64,000 bases of DNA from Algoriphagus sp. GTDB taxonomy: Bacteria > Bacteroidota > Bacteroidia > Cytophagales > Cyclobacteriaceae. Each line of letters begins with the position of its first letter. Position 1 is the stretch's first letter. Where the stretch lies: positions 144,343-208,342 of the forward strand of contig NZ_JAMWZB010000003.1 in assembly GCF_024305035.1 (NCBI RefSeq). Direction: 5' to 3'. The notes under the pieces were generated by a model. It searched no databases and was not told the DNA's origin. It saw only the letters and a program-made list of their open reading frames with translations. Below are positions 9,267 to 15,134 of this stretch, piece after piece. The position numbers and the translations under genes are program-made.

Positions 9267-9344
9267 GTGCGAAAATACCTTTCAATTTTTTTTCTAAACG
9301 ACTCACTTTCATTATTTTCGTTCATAACTTTTAAGCTGATTTTT

Positions 9345-9866
9345 ATGAAGAAATTACTAAACTTTGTCTCTCAACCGGTGACCATTTTCACATTGGCTAT
9401 CTTGTTAATCCTATTTAATGGATTACTGATGTTATCCATGCCAAAGGAATATGCGCTGGATTTGAAATTTGCCTACACGGTCTCGGAGACTATTTTTGCT
9501 TTGGAAAGTATGGGGGCCCAATCGAGGATATTTTATCGGATCGGTATTTGGATTTTGGATTTCCCCTATATGGTCGTTTATATGCTCTTTTTTACGGGGG
9601 TGATTTTTAAACTTTGGGGAAATAACAAATTCCTACTCGTACCCCTACTAATTGGTTTTTTTGATTTGCTTGAAAATTTCTGTGTCTTGGCACTTCTGGA
9701 TTCTTTCCCTGACATTTCTCCGATTTTGGCTAAAACTGCTTCAGTTTTCACCACAATCAAGTGGATATTTGTTCTCTTTTTAATGGGGGCCATGGTGACT
9801 GGCTTGATCCGAATGATTGTCCAAAGGAAATATTCAACTGAGTCTGCTTCAAGATTTGAAGTTTGA
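9345..9866 (+). CDS. Hypothetical multi-pass membrane protein
   Basis: About four hydrophobic segments; start likely MKKLLNFVSQ. Confidence 0.65.
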   Translation: MKKLLNFVSQPVTIFTLAILLILFNGLLMLSMPKEYALDLKFAYTVSETIFALESMGAQSRIFYRIGIWILDFPYMVVYMLFFTGVIFKLWGNNKFLLVPLLIGFFDLLENFCVLALLDSFPDISPILAKTASVFTTIKWIFVLFLMGAMVTGLIRMIVQRKYSTESASRFEV

Positions 9867-9967: not shown

Positions 9968-10681
9968 ATGAAAGAGGAATATTTTAAATGGTTTTCCAAC
10001 CACCTGCAGCGAGAGGTGCAAATGTTAGTTTTTGGGCATGCTGGGTACCCGGTGATTTTATTTCCCACTTCGAAAGGCTCCTTTCATGAAAATAAGGATA
10101 TGGGTTTGATCGGATCGGCGCATTGGTACCTTCAGCAGGGCTTGATTCAGATTTTTTGTCCAGAAAGCAATGATGCCCAAAGCTTTTATAATAAATCCCT
10201 GCATCCTCACCAACGAATTGAGAATCATGTGGCCTACGACAAAATGATTTGTCATGAACTTGTGGAACGGGTTCGTCTAAATACGGGTACAGCCAAAGTT
10301 GTGGTCGCCGGTTGTAGTTTTGGCGGATATCATGCAGCCAACTTTGCCTTTCGTCATCCTGGATACGTTAGTCATATGTTCAGCATGTCCGGGGCTTTTG
10401 ATATTAGGTCATTTATGGATGGCTATATTCATGATGATATTTATTATAACAGTCCATTGGAGTATTTACCGGGCCTACAAGATCGGGAACTCTGGAATAT
10501 GGATATCGTTTTAGGTACCTCTAATTGGGATATTTGTCTGGATTCCAATCTAAAACTTCACGATTGTCTCACTAAAAAGGAGCTCGCTCATTGGCTGGAT
10601 GTGAGGCATAATCAACGGCACGATTGGCCGGTTTGGCGAGAAATGTTCCCTCATTACTTAAGTAGAATCAAATTCAATTAA
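9968..10681 (+). CDS. Alpha/beta-fold esterase (esterase family)
   Basis: Nucleophile elbow VVAGCSFGGYHAANFAFRHP (GxSxG); first gene of a co-directional cassette. Confidence 0.85.
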   Translation: MKEEYFKWFSNHLQREVQMLVFGHAGYPVILFPTSKGSFHENKDMGLIGSAHWYLQQGLIQIFCPESNDAQSFYNKSLHPHQRIENHVAYDKMICHELVERVRLNTGTAKVVVAGCSFGGYHAANFAFRHPGYVSHMFSMSGAFDIRSFMDGYIHDDIYYNSPLEYLPGLQDRELWNMDIVLGTSNWDICLDSNLKLHDCLTKKELAHWLDVRHNQRHDWPVWREMFPHYLSRIKFN

Positions 10682-10703
10682 TCATCTTTTTACCCCTACA
10701 ACC

Positions 10704-11660
10704 ATGAAAAAAATAGGAATACTTTTCGGAATGGAGGATACCTTTCCGCAGGCTTTTATTGACCGCGTCAATCAGAAAGCCGAAAAGGGCATCCTTGCGG
10801 AAGCTGTCAAAATCGACAAAGTCATTCAAAATGAGTTGACTGAATATGCGGTGATTATAGATCGGATTTCTCAGGATGTACCATTTTACAGAGCCTACCT
10901 TAAAAATGCCGCCCTGACTGGTACCGCAGTAATTAATAATCCCTTTTGGTGGAGTGCCGACGATAAATTTTTTAACAATTGCCTTGCGGATCAATTAGGC
11001 GTTCCTTTGCCGAAAACCGTGATGTTGCCCTCTGCCGAGCACCCCACTGATACCACATCGAAGTCGTTTCGAAACCTTCAAGCTCCACTGGACTGGGAGG
11101 GAATATTTAATTATGTCGGATTTCCGGCATACATGAAGCCTTATGCGGGTGGAGGTTGGAAAAATGTTTATCGCTTGGAAAATAAAGCGGAATTTTTTCA
11201 AATCCATCCTCAAACTGGCCAACTCGTCATGCTGCTGCAAGAAGAAATTGTGTTTGATGATTATTTCAGGGTGTATTGCCTGGGAGGTAAAGCCGTACGA
11301 GTCATGGCCTATGAACCCCGAAATCCCCATCATCTCCGCTATGTGGTGGATAAGGCTCCCGCTTCAAAAAAGTTACTAGCTACCGTAAAAGATTACACCC
11401 TCAGACTTTGCAAAGGCTTGGGTTATGATTTCAATACCGTGGAGTTTGCTGTTCGGAATGGGATTCCTTATGCCATAGACTTTGGTAATCCGGCACCTGA
11501 TGCAGATGTGAATTCGGTAGGACAAGAAAATTTCGACTGGGTGGTTGAGCAGGCTGCAGATATGGCAATTCGCTATGCAAAAGCTCAAAAGCCCGGCAAA
11601 ATGAACCTTACCTGGGGGACCTTTATGAAGGAGTCGGTGGAAATGGCAAAACGATTTTGA
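10704..11660 (+). CDS. ATP-grasp domain protein (RimK/Ddl-like ligase)
   Basis: ATP-grasp-like elements: FPAYMKPYAGGGWKNV, LLQEEIVFDDYFRVYCLGGKAVRVMAYEP, TVEFAVRNGIPYAIDFGNPAPDAD. Confidence 0.8.
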   Translation: MKKIGILFGMEDTFPQAFIDRVNQKAEKGILAEAVKIDKVIQNELTEYAVIIDRISQDVPFYRAYLKNAALTGTAVINNPFWWSADDKFFNNCLADQLGVPLPKTVMLPSAEHPTDTTSKSFRNLQAPLDWEGIFNYVGFPAYMKPYAGGGWKNVYRLENKAEFFQIHPQTGQLVMLLQEEIVFDDYFRVYCLGGKAVRVMAYEPRNPHHLRYVVDKAPASKKLLATVKDYTLRLCKGLGYDFNTVEFAVRNGIPYAIDFGNPAPDADVNSVGQENFDWVVEQAADMAIRYAKAQKPGKMNLTWGTFMKESVEMAKRF

Positions 11661-11678
11661 CCCCATTTATAGCTAATT

Positions 11679-12797
11679 ATGTGCGCTTTAATTAAAAAGT
11701 TGCCCAACTTCACCTTAGGGGTAGAGGAGGAATATCAAATCATTGATCCAGATACAAGGGATCTTCGCTCCCACATGTCTAAGATCGTCGAGGGTGGTAA
11801 AATTCAGCTAAGAGAACAAGTCAAGGCTGAGATGCATCAATCTGTTGTAGAAGTAGGAACCAACATCTGCCAAAATGTAGCAGAAGCAAGAAAAGAAGTA
11901 GCTTTCCTGAGAAATAAAATTTCGGAATTGGCCGGTAAACAAAACCTGGTAGTGGGAGCGGCAAGTACCCATCCTTTTGCCAAATGGCAGGATCAGGAAA
12001 TCACCGACGATCCTCGCTATCACACCATAGTCAACGAGCTTAAAGACATTGCCCGGTCAAATTTAATTTTTGGAATGCATGTACATGTGGGCATTGAAAG
12101 CAGGGAAATTGCCTTACAACTGATGAATCAAGCTTGCTATTTTCTTCCCCATATTTATGCGTTGACTACCAATTCCCCCTTTTGGGAAGGTAGAAATACG
12201 GGGTTCAAAGCTTTTCGCGCCAAAGTTTTCGCCAAGTTTCCCCGAACAGGTTTGCCAGAATATTTTGATTCTGTTCAGTCCTATGACAATTTTTTGGAGA
12301 TTTTGGTCAAAACCAATTGCATAGATAATCCCAAAAAAATCTGGTGGGATCTTCGGATGCATCCTTTTTTCAGTACCATTGAGTTTAGAATTTGCGACAT
12401 GTGTTTGACTGTCAATGAAACGATTTGTGTGGTAGCCTTGATTCAGGCAGTAGTGGCCAAGCTGTATAAACTTTTGATGAGTAATACGAGCTTTAATATT
12501 TACCGAATTGCCTTGATCCGAGAAAATAAATTTCGTGCCGCGCGAAATGGCCTAGAAGGAATGTTGATCGATTTTGGGAAAAGAATTGAAGTACCCACGA
12601 CGGATTTAATCATGGAATTATTGGATTTTGTAGATGATGTAGTTGATGAGTTGGGAAGTCGAGAGGAAATCAATTACGTTCATACCATTCTCAAAAGTGG
12701 AACAGGTGCTGATCAGCAACTTATGGTTTTTGACCAGACCAATGATTTAAAGCAAGTGGTGGATTTTATTACCAGTAAGTTTAACGAGGGGATATAG
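11679..12797 (+). CDS. Carboxylate-amine ligase, GCS2 (YbdK-like) family
   Basis: FTLGVEEEYQIIDPDTRDL, GMHVHVGI, LTTNSPFWEGRNTGFKAFRAKVF, DLRMHPFFSTIEFRICDMCLTVNETI. Confidence 0.92.
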   Translation: MCALIKKLPNFTLGVEEEYQIIDPDTRDLRSHMSKIVEGGKIQLREQVKAEMHQSVVEVGTNICQNVAEARKEVAFLRNKISELAGKQNLVVGAASTHPFAKWQDQEITDDPRYHTIVNELKDIARSNLIFGMHVHVGIESREIALQLMNQACYFLPHIYALTTNSPFWEGRNTGFKAFRAKVFAKFPRTGLPEYFDSVQSYDNFLEILVKTNCIDNPKKIWWDLRMHPFFSTIEFRICDMCLTVNETICVVALIQAVVAKLYKLLMSNTSFNIYRIALIRENKFRAARNGLEGMLIDFGKRIEVPTTDLIMELLDFVDDVVDELGSREEINYVHTILKSGTGADQQLMVFDQTNDLKQVVDFITSKFNEGI

Positions 12798-12840
12798 GCA
12801 ATTGCTTACCTTTGTGCTAGAAAAGTAAATTCAATAGAAC

Positions 12841-13671
12841 GTGGGAAAGAAGAAGTTGCAATTGGCCGTTTTAGACATGTATGACGGGGAGCCTAACCAA
12901 GGTATGCGCTGCATTAAAGACATCCTTGAACGCTTTACCCGGGAAATCAGCTATCGCGTCTTTGATGTTCGGGGGAAAGCCGAAATTCCCGAAATCCGTG
13001 ACTTCGATATTTTTATTTCCACCGGAGGTCCCGGTGACCCTTTGGAAGGGGATGGAAATTGGGATTTGAAATACTTTGACTTTTTGGATCAAGTATGGAT
13101 ATGGAATCAAAATCACTCACGCAAAAAGCAGCTTCTTCTTATATGCCATTCGTTTCAAATGGCATGTAAGCATTTTGGCCTAGGACAGATTACGAAGCGA
13201 AAATCCACCTCCTTTGGGGTGATGACTGTCCACAAAACAGTGGAAGGAAAGCAGGATTCTCTTTTTAGAAATTTGGAGAATCCCTTTTGGGCTGTGGATA
13301 GCCGAGATTATCAAGTGGTTCAACCGAATAGAAGAAAGTTTAGCTTATTGGGTTCAAAAATCATTGCTTTAGAAAAAATCCGATCACATGTGGAATATGA
13401 GCGGGCAATCATGGGGATTCGGTTTTCGGATGAAATCGTCGGAACCCAATTTCATCCCGAGGCGGATCCCGTTTCTTTTTTGGCCCATCTCAAAAAACCA
13501 GAGGTGCGGGAGAAAATCATCGCAATAAAGGGAAAAGCAAAATTTAGAACCATGCTCGAAAATCTAGTGGATGAGGAGAAAATCTATAAAACCAACGAGA
13601 CGCTGATTCCCAATTTTATAGAAAATGCCATCAAAAAAGGACAGGTAGAAACAGTGAAAATGTTGACTTAG
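12841..13671 (+). CDS. Type 1 glutamine amidotransferase, stand-alone
   Basis: FISTGGPGDP, nucleophile LLLICHSFQMACKHFG, catalytic GTQFHPEADP. GTG start. Confidence 0.88.
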   Translation: MGKKKLQLAVLDMYDGEPNQGMRCIKDILERFTREISYRVFDVRGKAEIPEIRDFDIFISTGGPGDPLEGDGNWDLKYFDFLDQVWIWNQNHSRKKQLLLICHSFQMACKHFGLGQITKRKSTSFGVMTVHKTVEGKQDSLFRNLENPFWAVDSRDYQVVQPNRRKFSLLGSKIIALEKIRSHVEYERAIMGIRFSDEIVGTQFHPEADPVSFLAHLKKPEVREKIIAIKGKAKFRTMLENLVDEEKIYKTNETLIPNFIENAIKKGQVETVKMLT

Positions 13672-13676
13672 AACTC

Positions 13677-14870
13677 ATGATCGAGCGCGTAAGGAGTAAG
13701 TTTAATGCAGAATTTTCTCATGAAAAGTATGCACATTTTTTAGAGGATATCGAAAAAGATTTTGGCTATCGGCCGACCTTTCGTATTGCAGAAACTCCCT
13801 TTTTTATTCCTAAAAGTTTGGAGCATCAGCTCATCGAAGCTTCCCAGCACCTTATCGAGTTTATCCAGAGACCCGATTTCAAGCAATTAACGCAAAGGGC
13901 GTTGAACTTAACTACCCAGGTGCCCAATGAAGACAGTCACACTCAATTTTTGGCCATCGATTTTGGCATTTGTGAAGAAGCGGGAGTCCTTGTTCCCAAG
14001 CTGATCGAAGTTCAGGGCTTTGCTTCCATTTTTAATTTTCAGCTTCATCTTTTCCAGAAACTCCAGGCAACGTATCCTTTCTTGACCGAGTGGTCTCCCT
14101 ACTTGAGCGGCTTGGATGAAAAAGGCTATTTGCAAAAATTGAAACAGGTGGTCCTGAACGGTCATCAACCTGAAGAAGTGGTTTTGTTGGATATTCAGCC
14201 CGAAAAACAAAACACCAAAATTGACTTTTATTATTGTCATCAGGATTTAGGAATTCCCATTTGCTGTGTGACCGATATTAGTAAGGAAGGAAAACAGCTG
14301 TATTATATCAATCAAAGGGGAGAGAAAATCAACATTAAGCGAATCTACAATCGGGTGATTTTTGATGAACTCGAATCCCGAAAGGATTTGAAATTAAACT
14401 TTAGCTTTACTGATGTATTGGAAGTGGAGTGGGCTGGACATCCCAACTGGTACTCTCGGATTTCCAAGTTTATTTTACCCTATTTGAAAGGGCCTTACTT
14501 TATCGAAAGCACCTTGTTGAGCGAAGTGAAATCTATTCCGAAAGATCTGGAAAATTACGTATTGAAGCCCTTATTTTCATTTTCAGGATCAGGGGTAGTT
14601 TTTAACCTAAGCCCCAGAGACATCGAATTGGTCCGGGAAAAGGATTTATTCATCCTGCAAAAGAAAGTAAACTATTTACCCCTTATTCAATCTCCAGATG
14701 GCAAAGTCAAGGTGGAAGTGAGAATCTTGGCTTTGTGGCCTGAGCAGGATGATCAACCCACCCTGGTAGGGAATTTGGTGAGATTGAGTCGCGGAGAAAT
14801 GATTGGTGTTAAGTTTAACCAAGACAAAGATTGGGTGGGTGGTTCCATTGGTTTGTTTCAAAGACCCTAA
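13677..14870 (+). CDS. Uncharacterised ATP-grasp-like protein
   Basis: C-terminal NYVLKPLFSFSGSGVVFNLS...DLFILQKKVNYLP...VEVRILALWP...LVGNLVRLSRGEMIGVKFNQDKDWVGGSIGLF resembles an ATP-grasp/glutathionylspermidine-synthase-like nucleotide-binding region. Confidence 0.6.
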   Translation: MIERVRSKFNAEFSHEKYAHFLEDIEKDFGYRPTFRIAETPFFIPKSLEHQLIEASQHLIEFIQRPDFKQLTQRALNLTTQVPNEDSHTQFLAIDFGICEEAGVLVPKLIEVQGFASIFNFQLHLFQKLQATYPFLTEWSPYLSGLDEKGYLQKLKQVVLNGHQPEEVVLLDIQPEKQNTKIDFYYCHQDLGIPICCVTDISKEGKQLYYINQRGEKINIKRIYNRVIFDELESRKDLKLNFSFTDVLEVEWAGHPNWYSRISKFILPYLKGPYFIESTLLSEVKSIPKDLENYVLKPLFSFSGSGVVFNLSPRDIELVREKDLFILQKKVNYLPLIQSPDGKVKVEVRILALWPEQDDQPTLVGNLVRLSRGEMIGVKFNQDKDWVGGSIGLFQRP

Positions 14871-14872
14871 AG

Positions 14873-14907
14873 AAAAATAACCGGACTTGCCGGCTATTTT
14901 TGATTTT
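14873..14907 (+). terminator. Rho-independent terminator ending the amidoligase cassette
   Basis: AAAAATAACCGG-acttg-CCGGCTATTTTT stem (one mismatch) followed by T-rich sequence. Confidence 0.7.
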
Positions 14908-14915
14908 TAAATTAG

Positions 14916-15134
14916 GTGGAAGTGAACTACCCATTTGCTAAAGACAAATGTGCTTCGTGCTTCACTGCAACTTACTTACTGCTTCGAAGAGTTAGAAGTC
15001 TCACTGTTGCTCCACACGTGTACTGGCAAGTCCCTTACGAGGTTTTAATGTCTTATACTGACAATGCAAATACTAAATTTGTTGCTTACATCCAAACCAC
15101 TAAAGATGGTTTGGTTTTACGCTCCGTTCTATAA
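14916..15134 (+). CDS. Small hypothetical ORF (72 aa)
   Basis: Only non-overlapping ORF between two convergent genes; no recognised family. Confidence 0.3.
   Translation: MEVNYPFAKDKCASCFTATYLLLRRVRSLTVAPHVYWQVPYEVLMSYTDNANTKFVAYIQTTKDGLVLRSVL

Follow-up and report, generated by a model that had tools for sequence, protein, structure and literature searches.

A conserved, horizontally transferred five-gene amide-ligase cassette of Bacteroidota, a candidate module for a small gamma-glutamyl-type peptide

We analyzed a cassette of five genes, designated E, A, G, T and B in their order, in a 64,000-nucleotide stretch (the window) of an Algoriphagus sp. genome (G000; contig NZ_JAMWZB010000003.1, positions 144,343 to 208,342). 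The five genes constitute one co-inherited, horizontally transferred unit, and their products are a putative esterase (E), two predicted ATP-grasp proteins (A and B), a putative carboxylate-amine ligase (G) and a protein of the class-I glutamine amidotransferase (GATase) family (T). We put at about even the chance that the cassette is a module, free of nonribosomal peptide synthetases (NRPSs), for synthesis and turnover, inside the cell, of a small peptide or peptide-amine of gamma-glutamyl type, the chemistry of which we infer. An earlier sequence-only reading of the window had described a unit of amide-bond-forming enzymes, and the co-evolution of the genes upholds this part; an ammonia-donor role of T, however, is disfavored, and the pathway comprises more than these five genes.

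Eighty loci were collected by similarity to B; among the loci that carry a name, identity was highest for Algoriphagus. All five genes were present in the order E-A-G-T-B in 77 of the 80 loci, far beyond chance; the sequence-only reading had proposed a test of gene order across Bacteroidota. The three exceptions were two short contigs ending at G (L019 and L081) and one locus (L086) in which neither E nor A was present over 7 kb. Among 60 neighborhoods from other genera, a G-type gene was found in 35, an A-type gene in 32, a T-type gene in 27 and an E-type gene in 24. No transporter, regulator, carrier, NRPS, precursor, small tag open reading frame (ORF) or envelope gene was recurrent in these 60 distant neighborhoods, which extends the earlier observation that no carrier, NRPS, transporter or precursor is adjacent to the cassette. 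Gfo/Idh oxidoreductases, an amidohydrolase-like cluster and other neighbors were recurrent in a few loci only and were excluded as members.

Survey of 393 Bacteroidota genomes detected A in 138 and B in 118, with both present in 114, neither in 251 and discordance in 28. The A-B pair spans at least 27 families, and in many genomes A and B co-occurred though far apart or on separate contigs. The other genes followed the same pattern: A was present in 86 of the 88 T-bearing genomes, and close G homologues were found in 37 of the 39 tested genomes with both A and B, as compared with none of the 17 genomes with neither. The cassette was present in some and absent from other members of the same family, for example in the Cyclobacteriaceae, to which the window belongs, and in the family of Flavobacterium; its distribution therefore does not merely reflect one old split. 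B and G are single-copy genes in the host genome (one match each).

The trees of the five genes agreed with one another (pairwise distance matrices, r 0.90-0.96). In the tree of the concatenated genes, as in every single-gene tree, Flavobacterium grouped with the Algoriphagus group, contrary to taxonomy, and the Flavobacterium cassettes were set apart from those of other Flavobacteriaceae and of distant members of the window's family. A constraint uniting the window's family was rejected for all five genes (approximately unbiased test, p <= 0.003). The simplest reading of these results is a block transfer of all five genes linking the Algoriphagus group with Flavobacterium. Neither A nor B had a match in plasmid searches.

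E matched PF00756 above cut-off (E value 5.8e-7), in keeping with the alpha/beta esterase proposed from the sequence. The solved structures nearest to its profile were general esterases and carbohydrate esterase family 1 (CE1) feruloyl esterases, and a role as S-formylglutathione hydrolase was not adopted for it. A gave only weak sequence matches (RimK family, 1.2e-6). In an AlphaFold2 (AF2) model of A with a predicted local distance difference test (pLDDT) score of 72, Foldseek identified DdlA (2.4e-12), ArgX (1e-11) and RimK (1e-10; template modeling score 0.6), and a resemblance to LysX was also seen. Five residues of A (listed in Table 1) were invariant across 23 aligned homologues, and these we take to be the expected ATP/Mg binders by analogy with Ddl/RimK. 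The fold of this model of pLDDT 72, together with the conserved residues of the alignment, marks A as a predicted ATP-grasp ligase of the Ddl/RimK type. The R2K/CDC123 clade was not adopted for A, as its matches were sub-threshold; the terms GCS, GATase, hydrolase and Bacteroidetes did not turn up in a word search of the R2K/CDC123 paper. G gave a full-length GCS2 match (PF04107, E value 2.6e-55, 188 bits against a cut-off of 21), matched the NF010039 carboxylate-amine ligase family (520.7 bits against a cut-off of 371) and resembled the YbdK structure 1r8g (7e-67). These matches bear out the earlier assignment of G to the GCS2/YbdK family of ligases, with putative gamma-glutamyl activity; a gamma-glutamyl:cysteine ligase activity is given for YbdK in the title of Lehmann 2004, as cited in PMC2588565.

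B had been labeled divergent ATP-grasp-like, which was correct as to ATP-grasp but too loose. B of the window matched no family and had no GSP_synth match above cut-off; GSP_synth was matched by 17 of 35 B homologues, with a best E value of 5e-5. Foldseek searches with an AF2 model of B (pLDDT 87) identified yeast glutathione synthetase (1m0w, 2.0e-13), a GspS-like protein (3n6x, 2.3e-13) and YjfC (3e-11), and also YgiC, trypanothione synthetase and Cp1B. In the sequence of B, D95 and E111-x-Q113 lie N-terminal to K297 and the G304-x-G306 loop, which is the circularly permuted order. Comparison of hidden Markov models with another permuted ATP-grasp aligned E111-x-Q113 to E-x-N (E value 0.0037, with a low reported probability), so that the mapping onto the E-x-N metal motif is supportive, not proven. 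This confident model predicts for B a circularly permuted ATP-grasp fold like that of glutathione synthetase and GspS. Of the ATP/Mg residues that the sequence-only reading had advised inspecting, those expected in A were invariant, and B kept K297 and the Gly loop next to an E-x-Q variant. B appears doubled in one genus, either as a pair of neighboring B-like ORFs (368 and 488 aa, L147) or as a single 867-aa ORF (L151).

These nearest folds of B, which include YgiC/YjfC, trypanothione synthetase and the GspS-like protein, are also what would be expected if B, like YgiC, YjfC and GspS, coupled a polyamine or other diamine to a short peptide that G and A had made, with T and the M29 and M17 peptidases described below cleaving the conjugate. 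A profile search of PDB sequences with B pointed the same way, YgiC of E. coli being the single match, and YgiC and YjfC are described as peptidyl-polyamine synthetases (peptide-spermidine ligases) in PMC12568646. However, amino-acid-using glutathione synthetases and Cp1B scored at least equally in fold with B, and neither a GspS amidase domain nor a polyamine gene was recurrent in the 60 neighborhoods. We consider peptidyl-polyamine synthesis unlikely; it would amount to a special case of the gamma-glutamyl-type module, with an amine end-cap.

Sixteen genomes contained A and T but not B. In every one of the 12 such genomes fetched, a protein of ~460 residues was located between A and T, and the 60 B loci held no such protein. 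In one member, scanned with Pfam, a circularly permuted ATP-grasp domain was detected below cut-off (E value 2.8e-5). Thus, in all of the examined genomes that have A and T but no B, a permuted ATP-grasp replaces B in the slot between A and T. These variant operons run from E and A through the ~460-aa protein to T (L180, L181, L184, L187-L191 and others), often with another PF00756 esterase (~315 aa) after T.

Replacement was also found for T. T matched the class-I GATase family PF00117 (E value 6e-10, 39.5 bits against a cut-off of 22.8), and C102 and H205-P206-E207, which provide the Cys-His-Glu triad, were invariant in 23 homologues, in agreement with the earlier description of a stand-alone class-I GATase with these motifs intact. 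The GGPGSP oxyanion segment was conserved, and the nucleophile elbow was ICHSF in place of GxCxG. An M29 metallopeptidase was located between G and B in six cassettes. Close M29 homologues were present in 11 genomes, all of them T-negative and 10 with the M29 gene linked to the cassette, usually in T's slot, and in none of the 28 T-positive genomes tested (Fisher p 0.005; Fisher p-values here ignore relatedness among genomes). Six genomes whose A-G-B cassettes lack T carry it elsewhere, and 44 genomes with A and B lack T altogether. M29 metallopeptidases have no known chemistry that would let them act as suppliers of ammonia from glutamine. Since a peptidase can replace a hydrolase but not an ammonia donor, T is more likely to be a thiol peptide/amide hydrolase than an ammonia donor, and of the ammonia- or gamma-glutamyl-handling roles suggested earlier, that of ammonia donor is disfavored. 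If T were a true glutaminase feeding ammonia to A or B, the product would be a primary amide or an aminated metabolite; the conserved catalytic residues and oxyanion segment and the near confinement of T to A-bearing genomes would fit, but the M29 enzyme in T's slot, the 44 genomes without T and the altered elbow make it quite improbable. A GATase-like thiol peptidase beside GS-fold ligases has been proposed before for glutathione-like metabolites (PMC2588565).

The pathway exceeds the cassette: the E-A-G-T-B unit of the sequence-only reading is real, but a satellite operon encoding a second esterase (E'), an M17 aminopeptidase and a third ATP-grasp protein (C) co-occurs with it. In the host genome this operon (L222, 150396-154210) is tight, with gaps of a few nucleotides. 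C was detected in 30 of 61 cassette-bearing genomes versus none of 18 cassette-less genomes. Two genomes of the genus Flavobacterium contained C ~15 kb from the cassette, and in Flavobacteriia of one family (L159 and L161) the M17 and C genes precede E in the same direction. In two Algoriphagus-type genomes, the satellite operon lies directly downstream of a 574-aa gene, which, judged by eye, we take to resemble aceK.

In the proposed mechanism, G would use ATP to form the first amide, probably gamma-glutamyl, between glutamate and an amine or amino acid, and B would phosphorylate the carboxylate of G's product and join an amino acid or amine to it. A, together with the satellite C in the host genome, may add or supply further units, and T, the M17 and M29 aminopeptidases, E and E' may take off terminal or protecting groups or break the product down. 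The order of the steps, the gamma-glutamyl linkage and all substrates are putative. With three to four carboxylate-activating ligase folds (G, B, A and C), the product would contain a short chain of amide bonds. A small gamma-glutamyl-type product is favored because G and B recall glutathione or glutathionylspermidine synthesis, and T and the M17/M29 enzymes recall glutathione breakdown. A bolder proposal, which we hold only tentatively, is that much of Bacteroidota makes a dedicated, never-isolated glutathione-like molecule, either a gamma-glutamyl peptide or a peptide-polyamine, through a complete synthesis-and-turnover set in one or two operons. This set would comprise the ligases A, B, C and G, the GATase-fold peptidase, the M17/M29 aminopeptidases and two esterases.

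Several points weigh against a gamma-glutamyl-type module. In one family, G is missing from the whole of one genome (G206) and from the A-T-B cassettes of G065 and G092, and no G is adjacent to the variant operons with the ~460-residue ATP-grasp. Gamma-glutamylation is therefore not essential everywhere, and, as this family and the variant operon can do without G, the core is A plus a circularly permuted ATP-grasp. YbdK-type enzymes act on varied substrates, so the gamma-glutamyl step is assigned at the level of the family. B carries E-x-Q where canonical enzymes carry E-x-N, and the nucleophile Ser of E is lost in two relatives (L148 and L155). The host carries BshC, detected above cut-off, which leaves no obvious need for a substitute for glutathione in bulk and weakens the candidate role of the product as the bulk low-molecular-weight thiol of the host. 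Finally, in the papers that could be searched no work on the gene set and no product or activity for it was found, in line with the earlier statement that no biochemical product is known; the 2009 amidoligase survey may have listed the arrangement.

The sequence-only reading had named either a small metabolite or modification of a cellular polymer, of which we favor the former. The ligases could modify a protein or cell-envelope polymer, by RimK-like tailing or through a peptidoglycan or polysaccharide peptide, with the hydrolases as erasers. The best structural matches of A include RimK and the carrier-protein ligases ArgX and LysX, and tagging systems also use sets of ligases and peptidases; yet in the 60 neighborhoods neither carrier proteins nor ORFs for small tags nor envelope genes were recurrent, and known enzymes with the folds of B and G mostly act on small molecules, and we regard polymer modification as a poor prospect. 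A compatible solute or stress metabolite made by the logic of N-acetylglutaminylglutamine amide (NAGGN), a system marked by a GNAT-ATP-grasp fusion, an AsnB-type amidotransferase and an M42 peptidase, would share the ligase-plus-peptidase organization and suit the many carriers that are marine or freshwater Bacteroidota by name, but it is very improbable, as none of the five proteins matched the NAGGN-defining NCBIfam families and many freshwater Flavobacterium carry the cassette.

The ORFs and co-directional arrangement of the cassette were confirmed (Table 1), with gaps of 22, 18, 43 and 5 nt between successive genes. The terminator predicted after the cassette was confirmed as well: its hairpin had a minimum free energy of -10.1 kcal/mol (z = -3.86), and none of 200 shuffles was as stable. 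A generic terminator scan did not report this hairpin, probably because of a stem mismatch.

Table 1. Coordinates of the cassette genes, the terminator and the satellite operon (window positions unless a contig is given)
Feature	Position	Strand	Description
E	9968-10681	+	PF00756 alpha/beta-hydrolase ('putative esterase' family) with nucleophile motif GCSFGG
A	10704-11660	+	predicted ATP-grasp ligase, Ddl/ArgX/RimK type; invariant K145, E180, E247, D259, N262
G	11679-12797	+	putative GCS2/YbdK-type carboxylate-amine (gamma-glutamyl) ligase
T	12841-13671	+	stand-alone class-I glutamine-amidotransferase fold; C102, H205, E207 conserved; elbow ICHSF
B	13677-14870	+	predicted circularly permuted ATP-grasp, glutathione synthetase/glutathionylspermidine synthetase fold; invariant D95, E111-x-Q113, K297, G304/G306
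Intrinsic terminator	14873-14910	+	11-pair hairpin (14873-14901) and U-rich tail
Esterase E'	G000 contig C45, 153044-154210	-	satellite operon, outside window
M17 aminopeptidase	G000 contig C45, 151616-153034	-	satellite operon
Third ATP-grasp C	G000 contig C45, 150396-151610	-	satellite operon

Other systems were considered for the locus. No tRNA gene and no carrier peptide gene was found at the cassette, and carrier-peptide and tRNA-dependent systems were rejected. A graspetide (ATP-grasp ribosomally synthesized and post-translationally modified peptide) was rejected for lack of a precursor gene, the intra-operon gaps being 5-43 nt and the upstream gap 101 nt, with a dispersed repeat downstream. 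Anti-phage defense was rejected, as none of the five proteins matched a PADLOC model. The repeat, ~210 bp long and apparently non-coding, is located just downstream of the terminator (window 14915-15130) and gave no Rfam match. The host genome holds five further copies that are nearly full length (91-94% identity) as well as fragments, at least five in number, with copies on contigs C39, C56, C45, C24 and C34. Upstream of the cassette, a small-protein gene with no assigned family (window 9333-9866) is weakly conserved (30-49% identity); it is present in most Algoriphagus loci, was not found beside Flavobacterium cassettes and was excluded from the cassette.

The present analysis established the co-occurrence and transfer of the genes, the replacements and the satellite operon, of which the last two turn the cassette into a defined list of enzymes with testable roles. 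Its core pair, A and B, is carried by 114 of 393 Bacteroidota genomes and spreads horizontally as part of a block. If it exists, a conserved metabolite of a phylum this common would bear on redox, stress or nitrogen physiology; the pathway also offers stand-alone amide ligases for biocatalysis.

Glutathione synthesis and turnover, which relies on glutamate-cysteine ligase, a eukaryote-type glutathione synthetase, a gamma-glutamyl peptidase and a Cys-Gly aminopeptidase, resembles the cassette in its GCS-family ligase (G), permuted ATP-grasp synthetase (B), GATase-fold hydrolase (T) and M17 enzyme (satellite operon). Unlike glutathione metabolism, the present system adds the Ddl/RimK-type A and the third ATP-grasp C, some lineages are without G, and the host has the bacillithiol enzyme BshC. 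With YgiC/YjfC of E. coli and GspS, B shares the fold, the Lys and the Gly-rich ATP loop, as well as the profile match to YgiC, but it differs in its ~15% identity, the E-x-Q for E-x-N, the lack of a fused amidase and the operon context. The amidoligase/peptidase neighborhoods of Iyer, Aravind and colleagues (2008-2009) similarly combine GS-fold ligases with GATase-like thiol peptidases and were predicted to yield glutathione-like peptide metabolites (PMC2588565). The NRPS-independent ATP-grasp pathways for E-64, dapdiamides and tabtoxin likewise use stand-alone ligases that join acid, amino acid and amine stepwise, and Cp1B shares the fold of B; those pathways are clusters of limited distribution, whereas the present set extends over 27 or more families of a single phylum and has peptidases as well.

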